Assembly: GCA_018384375.1 (NCBI GenBank)
Contig: JAHAYJ010000074.1
Span: forward strand, 1 to 64,000
Direction: 5' to 3'
Source: Lachnospiraceae bacterium
GTDB taxonomy: Bacteria > Bacillota > Clostridia > Lachnospirales > Lachnospiraceae
Length of the DNA: 64,000 nucleotides
Positions 23,870-31,819 of this stretch are shown here, one piece after another. Each line of letters opens with the position of its first letter. The first letter of the stretch is position 1. The notes beneath the pieces are model-generated. The model made no database searches. It was not told the origin of the DNA and saw nothing but the letters and a program-made list of their open reading frames with translations. A program made the position numbers and the translations under genes.

Positions 23870-24802
23870 TTACTTCTGCTTTTCTCTTGCCCGTTTTCTG
23901 TCATTTTTGTCCTGATACAGTTCCACATTTCCCAATCCCTGGACAAATTTGGAAAACTGGCTGTATCCGAAATCCTTCACATTAAAGTGATTGTATTTAT
24001 TATAGACGCGATTGCTCAACTCGCTGATCCCTATCCCCTTTGTTCCGGACTTTTGAATGATCTCCCTGACATAACTGCAGATTTCCTCACGGGATTTTTC
24101 ATTGTTAAGCAGTGATATGGTGATCACATTCTGGTTCTTTTCCAGATGGAACATTCCCGCATCCTCAACAAATTTGGATAGCAGGCTGTATCCGTAGTTT
24201 CTCACATCGAAATCCGGATACATATTGACAAGTCGATTGCCCACAGCTGCAAGCTCCAGACTTTTTCCCTTGTTCTCATTTTCGTTGACAATGTTTGTAA
24301 TCGCATTATATATGACTTCTCTGCCGATGGTATTATCCTTATCATCCTTGCTCGCAGTATCCTCATCCTGATTACTCAGATTTTCCAGATTGACAAAGCG
24401 TGTGCAGGCCACGCGGAAGGAACGGGGTGTCTTCTCCTCCCCCATCCCGATAACCTCCATACCGGATTCTCGAAGCCGGCTGGCAAGACGGGTAAAATCA
24501 CTGTCACTGGAAACAATGCAGAAGCCATCCACATTTCCGGTATACAAAATATCCATGGCATCAATGATCAATGTGGAATCCGTAGCATTTTTCCCTACCG
24601 TATTGCTGAACTGTTGAATGGGAATGACCGAATTTTCCAGCAGTTCTCCCTTCCATTTGTTTGCCTGCGTACTTGTCCAGTCCCCATAGATTCTTTTGTA
24701 GGTAGTGATCCCGTATGTGGAAAGTTCCTCCAAAATCACACTGATGTATTTTGCGGAAATATTATCCGCATCAATCAGTAATGCGAAACGCTTATTTTCC
24801 AT
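23870..24802 (-). CDS. NYN-domain (PIN-like) nuclease with two OST-HTH/LOTUS domains
   Basis: A 310-residue protein. Residues 1-145 form a NYN/DUF88 domain with acidic residues in ALLIDADNIS, DSTLIIDAMDILYTG and IVSSDSDFTRLA, the pattern of a metal-dependent ribonuclease. Two related modules follow at about 165-235 and 242-305, each ending in a motif like DFGYSQFSKFV (first copy NYGYSLLSKFV), which are OST-HTH (LOTUS) domains known to bind RNA. The combination suggests an RNA-degrading or RNA-silencing protein; the target is unknown. It is 44 bases downstream of the LacI gene. Confidence 0.85.
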   Translation of the reverse strand: MENKRFALLIDADNISAKYISVILEELSTYGITTYKRIYGDWTSTQANKWKGELLENSVIPIQQFSNTVGKNATDSTLIIDAMDILYTGNVDGFCIVSSDSDFTRLASRLRESGMEVIGMGEEKTPRSFRVACTRFVNLENLSNQDEDTASKDDKDNTIGREVIYNAITNIVNENENKGKSLELAAVGNRLVNMYPDFDVRNYGYSLLSKFVEDAGMFHLEKNQNVITISLLNNEKSREEICSYVREIIQKSGTKGIGISELSNRVYNKYNHFNVKDFGYSQFSKFVQGLGNVELYQDKNDRKRAREKQK

Positions 24803-24846
24803 CCTCCGTCTCCCCTTTCTCTGATAATTACTGCACAGCAGTCTGC

Positions 24847-25854
24847 TTATCTGCTCATGACACTCTGCTTCTCCGATAAATATCCACTCACCACGTGGAT
24901 TCCCCTTCGATAGTCTGTTTTGCTGATCTTCTTCAGCAGAATACTGATACCGGTAAGAGCCATCTGCTCCATATCCACTCCGTAGGAAGTAATATCCACA
25001 TTGCAGAGCCCCGGATACAGATAGTCATCATAGCCCACCACAGAAATATCTTCGGGGACACGCCTTCCTGTCTCCTGAAGCAGTTTGATCAGCTTGCTGG
25101 CCGTCAGATCACAGTTACACACAAATGCCGTTGGCATTTCAGAAGGAAGGGTAAGCGAATCGTAAGACTCTCTTTCTCCGACACGATCGGGAATAATCCA
25201 TTCCTCTCTGACTTTTTGTCCATGCTCGATCATGGCCTTCTCGTACCCAAGATAGCGATCTGTAATGCTCTTAGTACTAAACAGGGTCCCAACAAATGCA
25301 ATTTCGTGATGTCCCTTATGAAACAGATAATTTGTAATTTCATAGGTCCCATAAAAGCTGTTGGATATAACACTGTCTTCAAAGATATCATTCACGTAGA
25401 AATCCATATAGACAACCGGAACGGGAACCCGTTCATGAAGCATTTTCAGATAACCACTGTCCATGCAGCCCAGTACCATAAGTCCATCCACCTTGTTCTC
25501 CCGGATCAGCTTAGGCACTTCCTGGTTATTTTCCTCCTCTTCTCCGATAATTTCAAGAAGTACAAAACAGTTTTGCTCAACCGCCCTTGTATTAATCTCC
25601 TGATACATCTTCCAGTAAAAGGTGGCCCACTTTTCTGTATAGTATTTGGCTAAAATCACGCCGATATTATAGCTTTTTTTCATTCCCTCCCTGATTTCTC
25701 CGGAAGGGATGTAACCCATTTCAAAGGCAAGCGTTTTTATTTTTTCCCGCATTACCTCACTGACTCCCGGTTTTCCGGACAAAGCTTTTGAAACTGTCAT
25801 TGTACTGACATTCAGTCTTTGTGCAATATCCTTCATTTTGACTGCTTTTGCCAT
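24847..25854 (-). CDS. LacI-family transcriptional regulator
   Basis: The 335-residue product has the N-terminal helix-turn-helix KMKDIAQRLNVSTMTVSKAL and a periplasmic-binding-protein-like sensor domain from about 60, ending with the SVVGYDDYLYPGLCNVDITS segment. ATG at 25854 behind GAGGTGTAAA is preferred to the longer frame starting at 25920, which would run into the glycosidase gene. It begins 8 bases after that gene ends, so the two form an operon and the regulator probably controls it in response to a mannan- or glucan-derived sugar. Confidence 0.92.
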   Translation of the reverse strand: MAKAVKMKDIAQRLNVSTMTVSKALSGKPGVSEVMREKIKTLAFEMGYIPSGEIREGMKKSYNIGVILAKYYTEKWATFYWKMYQEINTRAVEQNCFVLLEIIGEEEENNQEVPKLIRENKVDGLMVLGCMDSGYLKMLHERVPVPVVYMDFYVNDIFEDSVISNSFYGTYEITNYLFHKGHHEIAFVGTLFSTKSITDRYLGYEKAMIEHGQKVREEWIIPDRVGERESYDSLTLPSEMPTAFVCNCDLTASKLIKLLQETGRRVPEDISVVGYDDYLYPGLCNVDITSYGVDMEQMALTGISILLKKISKTDYRRGIHVVSGYLSEKQSVMSR

Positions 25855-25862
25855 TTTACACC

Positions 25863-27620
25863 TCAATCTTCCTGTTCGGTTCCCTTCTTCAATCCCTCCA
25901 GGATCAAAGGATATTTCCATTCACAGGTTTCTCTGTTGATTAGTCCGAATAGTTCTCCATTTCCCTCAAAGGCTCCATTATCCCACCAGATACAGGGAAT
26001 GCCTTTCTCGGCTGCCCGACTTACATAGTACTGAACCCACGCAGCCCGCTCACTTTCATTTCCCTCTGTATTTTTGTACATAGCACCAAATTCACCGATG
26101 ATTACCGGAATCCCTTTGGAAATGAAAAGTTCATCCAATTTCTGCATAATCGTGTCAATGTTTTCCGTATCCTGATCCCAGGTGCCACGCCCCTGTACAT
26201 TAAGTGCAAAGTCATAGGGTTCATATGCATGCACAGAGACAATAATCTTATCATCCTCCGGCACCTGAATATGCTCTAACGCAGCCCAGGCATTTGCAGC
26301 ATATCCGGGAATCATTAAGATTCGGTCAGGATTATTGCCTCCGCTCTCCCTGATCGTTCTGACAAAGACAGCATTCAATGCATTTACCACGTCCCAGCCT
26401 TCCTGGTCACCGCCGTTCCATTCCACGTCAGTACCTTTCTTTCTGGGTTCATTCAGTCCTTCAAAAATCAAATGCTCATCATAATCCTGGAATCGCTCCG
26501 CGATCTGGCTCCATACTGCTGCAAGAATCTTTTCGGAACGCTCCTGTCTGTCATAATATGTTTCATACCAGCTTTTGATGTAGGAATCCGGTGTGCAGTC
26601 TCCCCACCAGAACCAACCGCCGCTGGCCTCATGAAGCGGTCTGAAAAGAACCGGGACACCTGCCCTCTGCAGCTTCTGCAGTTCTTTTGCAATAACATCC
26701 ATATCAGAAATAAGCGCCTGATAGCCTTCTTCATCTTCCCCATTCATGATCTTATCAAGATCAATATTGGTACTATCTGTGTAAAACCCGCTGTACCAGT
26801 TTCCGGTAAGATATTGCTCCGGTGCATTCCAATGCCAACAAATCGTTACAATTGCCCCTTCTTCCCAAGCCTGCATCGCATACGTAATACTTTTTCCCTC
26901 ACTGCCATGGGCAGTTCTTGACGGCGAATATTCTATCATATCCAGTCCAACCATCGCCGGAAATTCACCTGTCTCTTTCCAGATACAGGCCATTTCATGA
27001 CCATACAGGCCACCATCACAATACTGCCCTGATATGATGTTCGTTCCATAGTTATCTACAAGATAACTCATGAGGCGTTTCGCGCAATCATCTGCATTTT
27101 CATTGCAAAGCTTTGCCGAAACCTGATAATAATCCTCCTCCAGTTCCTTACTCTGAAGGACTGTAAGCTTATCCAATGCAATATACCCCCAATATTTGGA
27201 AACCGTAATCTCATGTTCTCCAGCTTCTAAATAATTCCGTTTCATGCGCTCTTCGGTAAAAAAGCCTTCCGGGCTCGCAATGGTTCCTGCGGAAACGCCG
27301 TCCAGCAAAACAAAGTTCTCTTTATAACCGCCAATATTTGCTATTGTAAATTGGAAATCATAGAAGCCAGTCTCCTCGATGGTAATTCGAAAGGTACATT
27401 CATCTCCTTCTGCTTCAAATCCCTCCGCATAGCCTGTTCCCGAAAAGCCGCTCATTTCTTTTTTTACAGAGAGATTGGGAGAAAGCTGTGCATCTTCTGC
27501 CTCATAAACTCCGATCACATTCTTCTCCTCCTCAGATTCCCGTTGGCTATCAGCACAGCCAACCAAAATCATTACCCCCAGTATACAGGCCGTCAATACT
27601 TCTACCGTTTTCCCATTCAT
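25863..27620 (-). CDS. Secreted lipoprotein glycosidase: CBM35-like module plus GH26/GH5 hybrid barrel
   Basis: A 585-residue lipoprotein (lipobox LVGC, Cys22) facing the outside. Residues 37-157 look like a CBM35/CBM6-type carbohydrate module (VYEAEDA, FSGTGYAEGF). Residues about 185-345 are GH26 mannanase-like: MIEYSPSR, VTICWHWNAPEQYL and FRPLHEASGGWFWWG with the GH26 acid/base Glu331. From about 362 onwards the sequence is instead GH5-like: LIFEGLNEPR with Glu391, VSVHAYEP, VIIGEFGAM with Glu510, and WWDNGAFEGNGELFG. Both families are clan GH-A barrels, but this join would duplicate strand 4. Substrate is probably beta-mannan or beta-glucan; activity is uncertain. The ribosome site is weak. 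Confidence 0.85.
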   Translation of the reverse strand: MNGKTVEVLTACILGVMILVGCADSQRESEEEKNVIGVYEAEDAQLSPNLSVKKEMSGFSGTGYAEGFEAEGDECTFRITIEETGFYDFQFTIANIGGYKENFVLLDGVSAGTIASPEGFFTEERMKRNYLEAGEHEITVSKYWGYIALDKLTVLQSKELEEDYYQVSAKLCNENADDCAKRLMSYLVDNYGTNIISGQYCDGGLYGHEMACIWKETGEFPAMVGLDMIEYSPSRTAHGSEGKSITYAMQAWEEGAIVTICWHWNAPEQYLTGNWYSGFYTDSTNIDLDKIMNGEDEEGYQALISDMDVIAKELQKLQRAGVPVLFRPLHEASGGWFWWGDCTPDSYIKSWYETYYDRQERSEKILAAVWSQIAERFQDYDEHLIFEGLNEPRKKGTDVEWNGGDQEGWDVVNALNAVFVRTIRESGGNNPDRILMIPGYAANAWAALEHIQVPEDDKIIVSVHAYEPYDFALNVQGRGTWDQDTENIDTIMQKLDELFISKGIPVIIGEFGAMYKNTEGNESERAAWVQYYVSRAAEKGIPCIWWDNGAFEGNGELFGLINRETCEWKYPLILEGLKKGTEQED

Positions 27621-27682
27621 CTGCTTTATTTTTAACCTTGATAATTTTAATATTTCTCGTTTTATAACCTTATATCATTTAA

Positions 27683-27710
27683 AGTATACCTTTTGTCACC
27701 TTACGCAACA
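27683..27710 (-). promoter_or_regulatory. Candidate promoter of the glycosidase-lacI operon
   Basis: On the minus strand TGTTGC (27705-27710) is followed after 16 bases by TATACT (27683-27688). The -35 element lies inside one arm of the inverted repeat at 27704-27725. Confidence 0.45.
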
Positions 27711-27725
27711 CCATTTTATGTTGCG
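27704..27725. promoter_or_regulatory. Candidate operator, spaced inverted repeat
   Basis: CGCAACA and TGTTGCG are perfect 7-base arms separated by 8 bases. One arm covers the putative -35 element, so binding by the LacI-type product of the same operon would block transcription. Confidence 0.45.
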
Positions 27726-27890
27726 ATAAATATATCATTATTGCATTATTTGTGAATTTTGTATAATTAGACAAAATGAGCATGTTACAAATATCTATTT
27801 TGCACAAATATCGTTTTGTAACTTTTTTAAGTTTAATAAAGTTATTATAACTTTATTTTAGATTGCATCTATTTTTGATATTTTCTGCCA

Positions 27891-27922
27891 AAAAAAATCC
27901 CCATACAAGAGCTTGTACGGGG
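27891..27922 (-). terminator. Terminator of the sodium-pump operon
   Basis: On the minus strand CCCCGTACAAG and CTTGTATGGGG pair (one G-U) around a 2-base loop (27899-27922), followed by a run of T (27891-27897). It lies 40 bases beyond the oadA stop codon. Confidence 0.85.
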
Positions 27923-27961
27923 ATCCTCTATTTTCTATTTTCTGATATATCGTTCCAAATA

Positions 27962-29389
27962 TTACACAGGATATGCTGCATTCTTGGTATCAGCCTGGGT
28001 CATATCTACCTTTTCCTGCTGTGCCTGACGATACTTGAAGAAGTCTGTTGCCACCTGAGGGAACAATGCATAGGACAGTACATCCTCGTCCTGCTGCTTC
28101 CATTCCTTCATTTCTGACTCCAGCTTATCCATCTCGTTCTCAATCAGATCAGCGGGACGGCAGGTAATTCTCTCTTCACCCGGAATAACCTTGTCAATTA
28201 CCTCCTGGCTCATAGGCTTCACTGTCTGGCCATATTCACCACGAAGCACTGCCTTGGTTTCCTTGGTTGCCATCTTATATCTTTCACCCATCAGCACATT
28301 AAATACAGCCTGTGTACCAACGATCTGTGAAGAAGGTGTAACCAAAGGAGGCTCACCTAAGTCCTTACGAACCTGAGGGATTTCCTTCAGCACATCATAG
28401 TACTTATCCTCTGCATTCTGTTCCTTGAGCTGGCTAACCATATTGGAAAGCATACCGCCGGGAACCTGATATAACAGAGTCTTAATATCAACACCCATAA
28501 CCTTGGGATTCAAAAGTCCGCTTGCAAGGCACTCGTCTCTGTAAGGTCTGAAGTAATCAGCAATTTCAGCAAGAAGATTCTGATCATAGCCTGTATCGTA
28601 GGGAGTTCCCTTGAAGGTTTCAACCATAACCTCAGTTGCAGGCTGTGACGTGCCCATAGCAAAAGGTGAAATTGCACAGTCGATCACATCTACCCCTGCT
28701 TCTACTGCTTTCAGGTAAGTCATGCTGGCAACACCGGATGTATAATGCGTATGTAACTGGATCGGGAGCTTGGTTGCTTCCTTCATTGCCTTAATCAATT
28801 CAGCAGCCTTGTAAGGAACCAGAAGGCCTGCCATATCCTTGATACAGATGGAATCTGCTCCCATCTCCTCAATCTTCTTAGCCATATCTACCCAGTATTC
28901 CAGAGTATAAGCATCACCCAAGGTATAGGAAAGCGCGATCTGTGCATGACCTCTTCCTTCCTGTGCCTTGATCTTATTGGTTGCATTAACTGCTTCCTGA
29001 AGGTTTCTCAAGTCATTCAGGCAGTCGAAGATACGGATAATATCAATACCGTTTGCAATAGACTTCTCAACAAAGCTGTCTACCACATCATCTGCATAAG
29101 GTCTGTAACCTAAAATATTCTGCCCTCTGAACAGCATCTGAAGCTTGGTATTCTTAAATCCATCTCTTAATTTTCTAAGTCTCTCCCATGGATCTTCCTT
29201 TAAGAAACGAAGGGAAGCATCGAATGTTGCACCACCCCAACACTCTACTGCATGATAACCAACTTTATCCATTTTATCTACGATTGGAAGCATCATGTCG
29301 GTAGGCATTCTCGTTGCGATCAGTGACTGGTGCGCATCACGAAGAACGGTCTCCATAATTCCAACCGGTTTTTTAACCTGTTCTGCCAT
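27962..29389 (-). CDS. oadA: Oxaloacetate decarboxylase alpha subunit / pyruvate-type carboxyltransferase
   Basis: A 475-residue carboxyltransferase that moves CO2 between oxaloacetate and biotin. It shows LRDAHQSLIATRM with the metal-binding Asp, MLFRGQNILGYRPYADDVV, SICIKDMAGLL with the conserved Lys, and LQLHTHYTSG with metal-ligand His residues. It lacks a fused biotin domain, since the carrier is encoded separately upstream. It is the last gene of a five-gene operon and could equally be named PycB-like. Confidence 0.9.
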   Translation of the reverse strand: MAEQVKKPVGIMETVLRDAHQSLIATRMPTDMMLPIVDKMDKVGYHAVECWGGATFDASLRFLKEDPWERLRKLRDGFKNTKLQMLFRGQNILGYRPYADDVVDSFVEKSIANGIDIIRIFDCLNDLRNLQEAVNATNKIKAQEGRGHAQIALSYTLGDAYTLEYWVDMAKKIEEMGADSICIKDMAGLLVPYKAAELIKAMKEATKLPIQLHTHYTSGVASMTYLKAVEAGVDVIDCAISPFAMGTSQPATEVMVETFKGTPYDTGYDQNLLAEIADYFRPYRDECLASGLLNPKVMGVDIKTLLYQVPGGMLSNMVSQLKEQNAEDKYYDVLKEIPQVRKDLGEPPLVTPSSQIVGTQAVFNVLMGERYKMATKETKAVLRGEYGQTVKPMSQEVIDKVIPGEERITCRPADLIENEMDKLESEMKEWKQQDEDVLSYALFPQVATDFFKYRQAQQEKVDMTQADTKNAAYPV

Positions 29390-31036: not shown

Positions 31037-31819
31037 TTAGGCTTTCTGCCATTTACTTCCCACACGTCTGATACTTCTCACAACAAATCCATCTGTAGAC
31101 GAAGCACCTTCGCTTGCCGCAATTGCTGCGGCAATAACAGCTACCAGTTCAAGATCATCGGTAAGTTCTTCCTTCTCAATGATCTGTGCAATCGTGTTAT
31201 CTACTGCTGCACTCTTAGCTTCCTGCTTTGCCGATTTCTTTGAAAACTTAGCCTGAAGCTTAGGAATCAAACTGAAGCAGCTGATAATTCCACTGATCAG
31301 AATCAGAACCACAAATACGGTTCCCATACCAAGAAGCGTATTTAATGCTGCCTTCTCCATCTTTTCACCAAAGGAGTAAATAACATTGGTTGTGACACTG
31401 ACCGGCATACCGTCTTCAAACACAACCTCTATTGTAGCATTCCGTTTGTCACATTTTATCTCAGCCGTAAGTACACCCTCTTCCGGATACCTCGTACCTT
31501 GATATTCCTCAACAACTACGGAATTATTGGTGACCTTAACCACTTCTACATAATTACCCATATCTTCGGAAGCACTCTTCCAGCTTGCAAAGGCATTTTC
31601 AAACACTGTGCCATCCACGCCATTTTGTTCAACCATGGCAATGTAGCTTTCCTCGCCCTGCTGGTTTACCACCTGACTGACAACAGTAGCAACGCTTTCC
31701 ACATAATCCCTTGCTTCCTGATCTGACATCAGATCGTCTGCCTCTTTATTCTGCTGGCCGCATGCTGTAAGTCCAAGCATACAGGTAATCATACCTAATA
31801 TTAATAACCATTTTTTCAT
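31037..31819 (-). CDS. OadG-like gamma subunit fused to an external lipoprotein domain
   Basis: A 260-residue protein. It begins with a lipoprotein signal (LGLTACGQQ, Cys about 21) and an external domain of about 130 residues, then one membrane helix (about 148-172, LLGMGTVFVVLILISGIISC) typical of OadG/MmdD gamma chains, and a cytoplasmic tail with AVIAAAIAASEG and RRVGSKWQKA, the usual OadG ending. Standard gamma chains are much shorter, so the outer lipoprotein part is an added module of unknown role. Confidence 0.8.
   Translation of the reverse strand: MKKWLLILGMITCMLGLTACGQQNKEADDLMSDQEARDYVESVATVVSQVVNQQGEESYIAMVEQNGVDGTVFENAFASWKSASEDMGNYVEVVKVTNNSVVVEEYQGTRYPEEGVLTAEIKCDKRNATIEVVFEDGMPVSVTTNVIYSFGEKMEKAALNTLLGMGTVFVVLILISGIISCFSLIPKLQAKFSKKSAKQEAKSAAVDNTIAQIIEKEELTDDLELVAVIAAAIAASEGASSTDGFVVRSIRRVGSKWQKA

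Follow-up and report, generated by a model that had tools for sequence, protein, structure and literature searches.

The window analyzed here, a 64,000-nucleotide stretch of contig JAHAYJ010000074.1 (assembly GCA_018384375.1) from a Lachnospiraceae bacterium, contains a gene for a 585-residue hybrid glycosidase, with a front half from glycoside hydrolase family 26 (GH26) and a back half from GH5. The gene is a single open reading frame (ORF) without internal stop and occupies exactly 25863..27620 on the minus strand (27620→25863); the plus-strand translation of the same stretch contains stops. In order, and all on the minus strand, it encodes a lipoprotein-type signal peptide read by eye, with lipobox L-V-G-C at Cys22 (27555..27620), a CBM35 carbohydrate-binding module (residues 38-154, 27159..27509), the GH26 half with barrel strands 1-4 (residues 173-349, 26574..27104), and the GH5 half with strands 4-8 (residues 350-585, 25866..26573). 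Pfam matches were obtained for PF16990 CBM_35 (7.5e-18), for PF02156 Glyco_hydro_26 over residues 173-436 (1.3e-44), and for PF00150, the cellulase/GH5 family, over residues 349-550 (6.3e-45). All three are far over the cut-off, and the GH26 match extends beyond the join, overlapping the GH5 match. A PDB sequence search returned the GH26-CBM35 mannanase 3zm8 for residues 38-379 and GH5 endoglucanases, among them 3ayr and 8ghx, for residues 349-581. The product would be expected to be secreted and lipid-anchored.

Homologs were sought in a genus set of 37 genomes and a family sample of 397 genomes, both including the window's own genome, as well as in genome_contigs, a species-level collection. 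Matches were found in 17 of the 37 genus genomes, and only the window's own genome matches over the whole length, residues 1-585. The other genus matches listed lie essentially to one side of the join and overshoot it only slightly (for example 11-384 and 303-372). In one of these relatives, G015, genes of both parent types lie on one contig at opposite ends of an operon, with GH26 as the first gene and GH5 as the last. Residues 1-358 of the chimera are 72% identical to this GH26, and residues 345-585 are 78% identical to this GH5. The same layout is found in G022, where identity is 81% for GH5 (residues 345-582) and 46% for GH26. The operon order in both is GH26, about 12 ORFs including those for ATP-binding cassette (ABC) sugar transport, GH5, and a LacI regulator; the script-called count between GH26 and GH5 in G015 is 12. 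A Pfam scan of ten G015 operon proteins, leaving out five interior ORFs, gave GH26, DUF624, solute-binding protein, permease, permease, DUF5696, permease, solute-binding protein, GH5, and LacI. The stretch equivalent to the deletion proposed below is 17,357 bp long in G015 and slightly longer, at 17,403 bp, in G022.

The operon is whole in 2 of the 37 genus genomes, G015 and G022. Its DUF5696 protein is matched at 73% at least in six of them (G015, G022, G019, G013, G012, and G024), all of which also have a match to the GH26 half, while some DUF5696 match at an E value of up to 1e-20 occurs in 11 of the 37. G019 (C74), G013 (C49), G012 (C33), and G024 (C247) contain the GH26 front and DUF5696 but no orthologous GH5 among the matches listed. 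GH5 is present at 68-69% in G026 (C54) and G016 (C87), which have no GH26 match. The GH5 end of the operon may therefore vary among genomes, or it may have been lost in draft gaps. Matches at E values of up to 1e-20 were found in 82 of the 397 genomes of the family sample, and in four of these (G349, G421, G323, and G257) GH26-like and GH5-like matches lie on one contig, 18-19 kb apart. The DUF5696 protein of 858 amino acids at L081:1053-3626 is an interior member of the GH26...GH5 operon. A DUF624 protein adjoins the operon's GH26 end, and a related DUF624 protein adjoins its GH5 end.

The 2 halves of the hybrid meet at 26573..26574 on the minus strand, between codons 349 and 350. Codon tables were made with the GH26 genes of G015, G019, L032, and G022 and the GH5 genes of G015 and G022, and the comparison showed the hybrid to be GH26-like through codon 348-349 and GH5-like from codon 350 on. 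The parent-like genes of G015 have only 2-3 nucleotides in common at this position, which is the possible extent of shared sequence, and no Ns were found. In the G015 protein, the GH5 part corresponds to the sequence from Ser159 on, immediately behind the strand-3 His-His-Glu. With strands 1-4 taken from GH26 and strands 4-8 from GH5, the hybrid would have nine strands, a count on which the alignments and an AlphaFold2 model agree. Since the parent-like genes have almost nothing in common at the join, we infer illegitimate recombination as the mechanism; the near absence of shared parent sequence also argues against repeat-driven misassembly. An initial annotation of this DNA had described an uninterrupted frame (strand unstated) with a GH26 front and a GH5 back behind a CBM35-like module, glutamates 331, 391, and 510, a join within residues 345-362, and two versions of strand 4 in a barrel of nine strands. 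Each of these points agrees with the ORF, the Pfam and PDB sequence searches, the codon comparison, or the alignments and model.

Conserved features of the 2 families are divided at the join as well. GH26 strands 1-4 are present together with the glutamate of the PLHE motif, Glu331 (26628-26630), which is invariant with its motif in a 44-row set of relatives. GH26 strands 5-8 and the nucleophile glutamate were not found in the hybrid: close GH26 orthologues align only up to residue 358-371, a few distant GH26 matches weakly overshoot the join to residues 384 and 411, and beyond the GH26-aligning region the chimera is 78-81% identical to GH5. We take the GH26 nucleophile to sit in the absent back half. 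From GH5 subfamily 4, the hybrid has the NEP glutamate on strand 4, Glu391 (26448-26450), and the GEFG glutamate on strand 7, Glu510 (26091-26093), both invariant in a 14-row set. Strands 1-3, with Arg on strand 2 and His-His on strand 3, are absent from the hybrid, as the GH5 part begins after them. In G015 numbering these residues are Arg112, His156, and His157; they are invariant in 9/9 relatives and fall in predicted strands 110-116 and 150-157 of the G015 GH5. The β-sandwich domain expected of a CBM35 was found. Following family knowledge of GH26 and GH5, we take Glu331 and Glu391 to be acid/base residues and Glu510 to be the nucleophile. Judged from sequence, the composite barrel is thus predicted to have two candidate acid/base glutamates, 331 and 391, and one nucleophile, 510.

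The remainder of the operon was sought in the window's own genome, a draft of 125 contigs that is 96.12% complete with 1.75% contamination. Two stretches of G015 operon DNA, 7.0 and 9.0 kb, had no match there in a DNA search for which protein searches served as control. DUF5696 was not found there at E values of up to 1e-20, the six genomes named above being the positives, and for an operon permease that is 95% identical between G015 and G019 there are only paralogues at 34% or less. The GH26 back half was not found elsewhere in the genome, where the full G015 GH26 matches the chimera alone, at residues 6-371. An orthologous GH5 front half was likewise not found in this genome, where the full G015 GH5 matches the chimera and a separate GH5. 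The latter (G000:C5:10699-11844), an open frame of 459 amino acids with 49% identity to the operon GH5, remains in the window's genome.

The regulator at the end of the operon is still in place. A LacI-family gene on the minus strand (24847..25854) is 78.5% identical to the LacI after GH5 in G015 and begins 8 nucleotides downstream of the hybrid gene, and the spacing from GH5 stop to LacI is identical in G015. The region upstream of the hybrid gene (27621..27900, minus strand) is partly like that of the G015 GH26 (local score 61 versus a maximum of 44 in 300 shuffles); against G019 its score merely equals its highest shuffle, 42. A perfect 11-nucleotide inverted repeat at 27835-27857, upstream of the hybrid gene, is a candidate operator for LacI. 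In G015, A+T-rich inverted repeats are likewise present upstream of GH26.

On balance, we think that the gene is the in-frame, probably recent scar of an operon deletion and probably lacks full enzyme activity. A deletion of about 17.4 kb would have taken out the interior of a mannan/glucomannan-type operon. It would have left the first gene, a GH26 mannanase with CBM35, without its 3' part and the last, a GH5_4-like endoglucanase, without its 5' part, the two remnants being fused in frame. The GH5 3' end and the operon's own LacI would have been left in place, with the fused gene under what appears to be the original upstream region. An origin by operon deletion is very likely, and, given that origin, the absence of useful hydrolase activity is reasonably likely. 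Full activity is unlikely because the composite site lacks both the Arg and His-His of GH5 and the nucleophile half of GH26, and the nine-strand composite barrel would most likely fold poorly or have little activity. The CBM35 may still bind mannan. The initial annotation had offered a deletion between neighboring GH26 and GH5 domains as one explanation. The deletion stands, and the neighboring domains do not, as the orthologue search that had been proposed identified the parents as 2 separate full-length genes that lie about 17.4 kb from each other in G015 and G022. Single-family orthologues of full length had been named as a finding that would overturn the chimera. None appeared; at the join, the orthologues divide into two families. 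The natural chimera with new geometry that had also been suggested could be a consequence of the deletion.

The position of the locus weighs against this explanation in its simplest form. The hybrid gene and LacI lie between an OadA-like gene (27962..29389) and an NYN-like gene (23870..24802), both on the minus strand and named by eye, which are 99.6% and 97% identical, respectively, to their counterparts in G023. In G023, the nearest relative seen, OadA is directly followed by NYN and then by an amidase-like gene, and the operon is absent there. NYN loci were fetched for 30 of the 32 genomes with a match; OadA adjoins NYN in 22 of these loci, a gene intervenes in two, five have no OadA within the flank, and one is the window. 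The operon follows NYN in G015 and G019, whereas the window has its chimera and LacI on the opposite side of NYN, between it and OadA (23870-29389). Deletion alone does not seem to explain this, and a rearrangement or a separate insertion would probably also be needed.

An AlphaFold2 model of the hybrid, of moderate confidence, has the nine strands in order, with a predicted template modeling score (pTM) of 0.61 and a predicted local distance difference test (pLDDT) under 50 at the join (residues 332-356). It aligns to the GH26 structure 6hpf over 282 residues at 3.5 Å. The CBM35 is the best-modelled part, with ten-residue block means of 81-97. Mean confidence in the GH5 half is 70.4 in the chimera versus 78.1 in an intact GH5 (22 blocks, the chimera being lower in 19/22), and pTM is 0.61 versus 0.76, both proteins having been folded with the same nine sources. 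The alignment used, A2, has 28 GH26 and 9 GH5 rows, and the GH5 half of the model therefore rests on nine rows. These rows were picked for correct placement prior to any model; they are one of the only 2 among 40 random GH5 draws that aligned correctly. An earlier alignment of 67 half rows was discarded, as MAFFT had put GH26 rows over the GH5 half.

Conservation sets a bound on how long the fused gene can have been free of constraint. Sets of sites invariant in all the other orthologues were built from 44 GH26 rows and 14 GH5 rows (the window counted in each), filtered from 53 and 32 matches by identity (40% for GH26, 55% for GH5), length, and duplicates; L032 is not in the set. The chimera changes 0/43 GH26-invariant and 0/81 GH5-invariant sites (0/124 in total), and most other rows also change no invariant site, which makes this a test that gives a bound only. 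In a neutral simulation, with transitions as half of events and indels excluded, a gene escaped both changes and stops with a probability of about 8% at 0.0075 substitutions per site, falling to 3% at 0.01. The fused gene is thus either younger than about 0.9% neutral divergence, by interpolation, or constrained. Seven flanking genes have synonymous distances (dS) of 0.35-2.1 to G023, and on this scale an unconstrained fusion would be a late event on this branch. Branch lengths add little to this, with most synonymous distances saturated and the row labelled L032 being that of L084 and so not independent. For GH5, the window's branch, at 0.143 amino-acid differences per site, exceeds those of G015 and G022 (0.080 and 0.046). 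Its GH26 branch is barely longer (0.152 versus 0.115 and 0.146). The OadA branch is also longer in the window (0.027 versus 0.013 and 0.013), and those of NYN and of the gene at 31037 are not.

An alternative is that the hybrid is a working enzyme kept by selection, which we regard as possible but unlikely. It would form a nine-strand barrel, or an eight-strand one with GH26 strand 1 displaced, in which Glu391 and Glu510 act as a retaining pair and the CBM35 targets mannan. The open frame and the unaltered invariant sites of both halves would be expected of such an enzyme, as would the retention of the signal, the CBM35, LacI, and some of the upstream region; the ordered strands of the model and its alignment to 6hpf are compatible with it, and engineered half-barrel chimeras of two glycosyl hydrolases were active and stable, according to a review (PMC8250049). 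However, a very young scar would likewise have no altered invariant sites. The gene is present in one genome only among those searched, Arg112, His156, and His157 of GH5 are lost, the join is modelled at pLDDT under 50, and the tested transport genes of the operon are gone. In its strongest form, in which a natural hybrid of two clan GH-A families, created in frame by a one-step operon deletion, folds into a working composite barrel and was retained under control of LacI and the original promoter, this alternative seems to us quite unlikely. Selection could also conceivably act on the CBM35 alone, making the product a LacI-controlled surface binder that is lipid-anchored and carries an inactive barrel as dead weight. 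The confident model of the CBM35 and its unchanged invariant sites would suit this role, but selection on the binding module only would not long preserve all 81 GH5-invariant residues, and we consider this explanation improbable.

It is similarly hard to credit that the join is the assembly artefact suggested in the initial annotation, with two loci or strains misjoined and the full operon present in the true genome. The draft is in 125 contigs and the join was seen in one genome only, both of which would be compatible with a misjoin, and partial domains are often artefacts, with rare real cases, according to PMC4432964. The 2-3 nucleotides shared at the join are, however, far under the usual assembler overlap, there are no Ns, and the fusion is in frame. 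Both flanks are collinear with G015 except for the position of NYN, and neither the operon interior nor the two missing gene halves were found on other contigs.

Other fusions of this kind were sought in the same collections. Among the matches listed, no other chimera was found in the 36 other genus genomes, and no other match over residues 1-585 in the 396 other genomes of the family sample, where no more than three candidates were scored for each genome, so that a weak chimera could escape. In genome_contigs, 0/49 loci span both halves, and a scan of viral_contigs found nothing. L047, with a match over residues 289-585, was considered as a second fusion and rejected, being an ordinary GH5 gene. 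Among the titles and abstract openings listed in literature searches of open-licence PMC papers, there was no natural GH26/GH5 half-barrel hybrid.

Among characterized proteins, the hybrid resembles 3zm8, a CBM35-GH26 endo-β-1,4-mannanase from Podospora anserina, in its CBM35 and in GH26 strands 1-4 with the PLHEAxGGWFWWG motif, but it lacks the GH26 back half and has GH5 in its place. The GH5_4 endoglucanases 3ayr, 8ghx, 6wqp, and 6q1i match within residues 349-581 (GH5-4 is named in the PDB titles of 6wqp and 6q1i), and their NEP and GEFGA motifs are kept in the hybrid, which in contrast has four GH26 strands where GH5 strands 1-3 with Arg and His-His would be. PbGH26A-GH5A of Prevotella bryantii presumably has both barrels complete. 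It also combines GH26 and GH5 in one polypeptide by its PDB title (6d2w), with the GH5 match in a separate part of the 776-residue chain, whereas the hybrid consists of two part-barrels spliced into one. Among engineered barrels, a CheY-HisF chimera is said to have an extra strand. Half-barrel chimeras such as the glycosyl hydrolase hybrids of Sharma et al. and the CheY/NarL-HisF proteins, as described in PMC8250049, likewise join parts of different barrels or folds in one chain; these were made in the laboratory, while the hybrid arose in a genome, apparently with one strand too many. For the parent operon, PMC6385246 describes two β-mannan loci in Roseburia that contain GH26, ABC transporter, and LacI genes.

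The genome itself did a cross-family barrel-fusion experiment, and the intact parent-type operons in relatives allow comparison with it. The gene makes it testable whether part-barrels of two families, with strand 4 present twice, can be fused at all, and whether such a fusion can be active. If it is a scar only, it documents the collapse of a mannan-type operon to one fused gene and its regulator. It is also a warning for annotation pipelines, which would call both GH26 and GH5 at the hybrid gene.

An orphan LacI with 68-69% identity to that of the window lies at the NYN-amidase site in 2 further genus genomes (L135:11598-12617 in G030 and L136:3869-4888 in G010). These genomes are 78% and 89% complete, respectively; their matches to the chimera are at 48% or less, and no orthologous GH26 or GH5 match was found in either. 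If the orphan LacI is a remnant, there would have been at least one further loss of the operon around its regulator.
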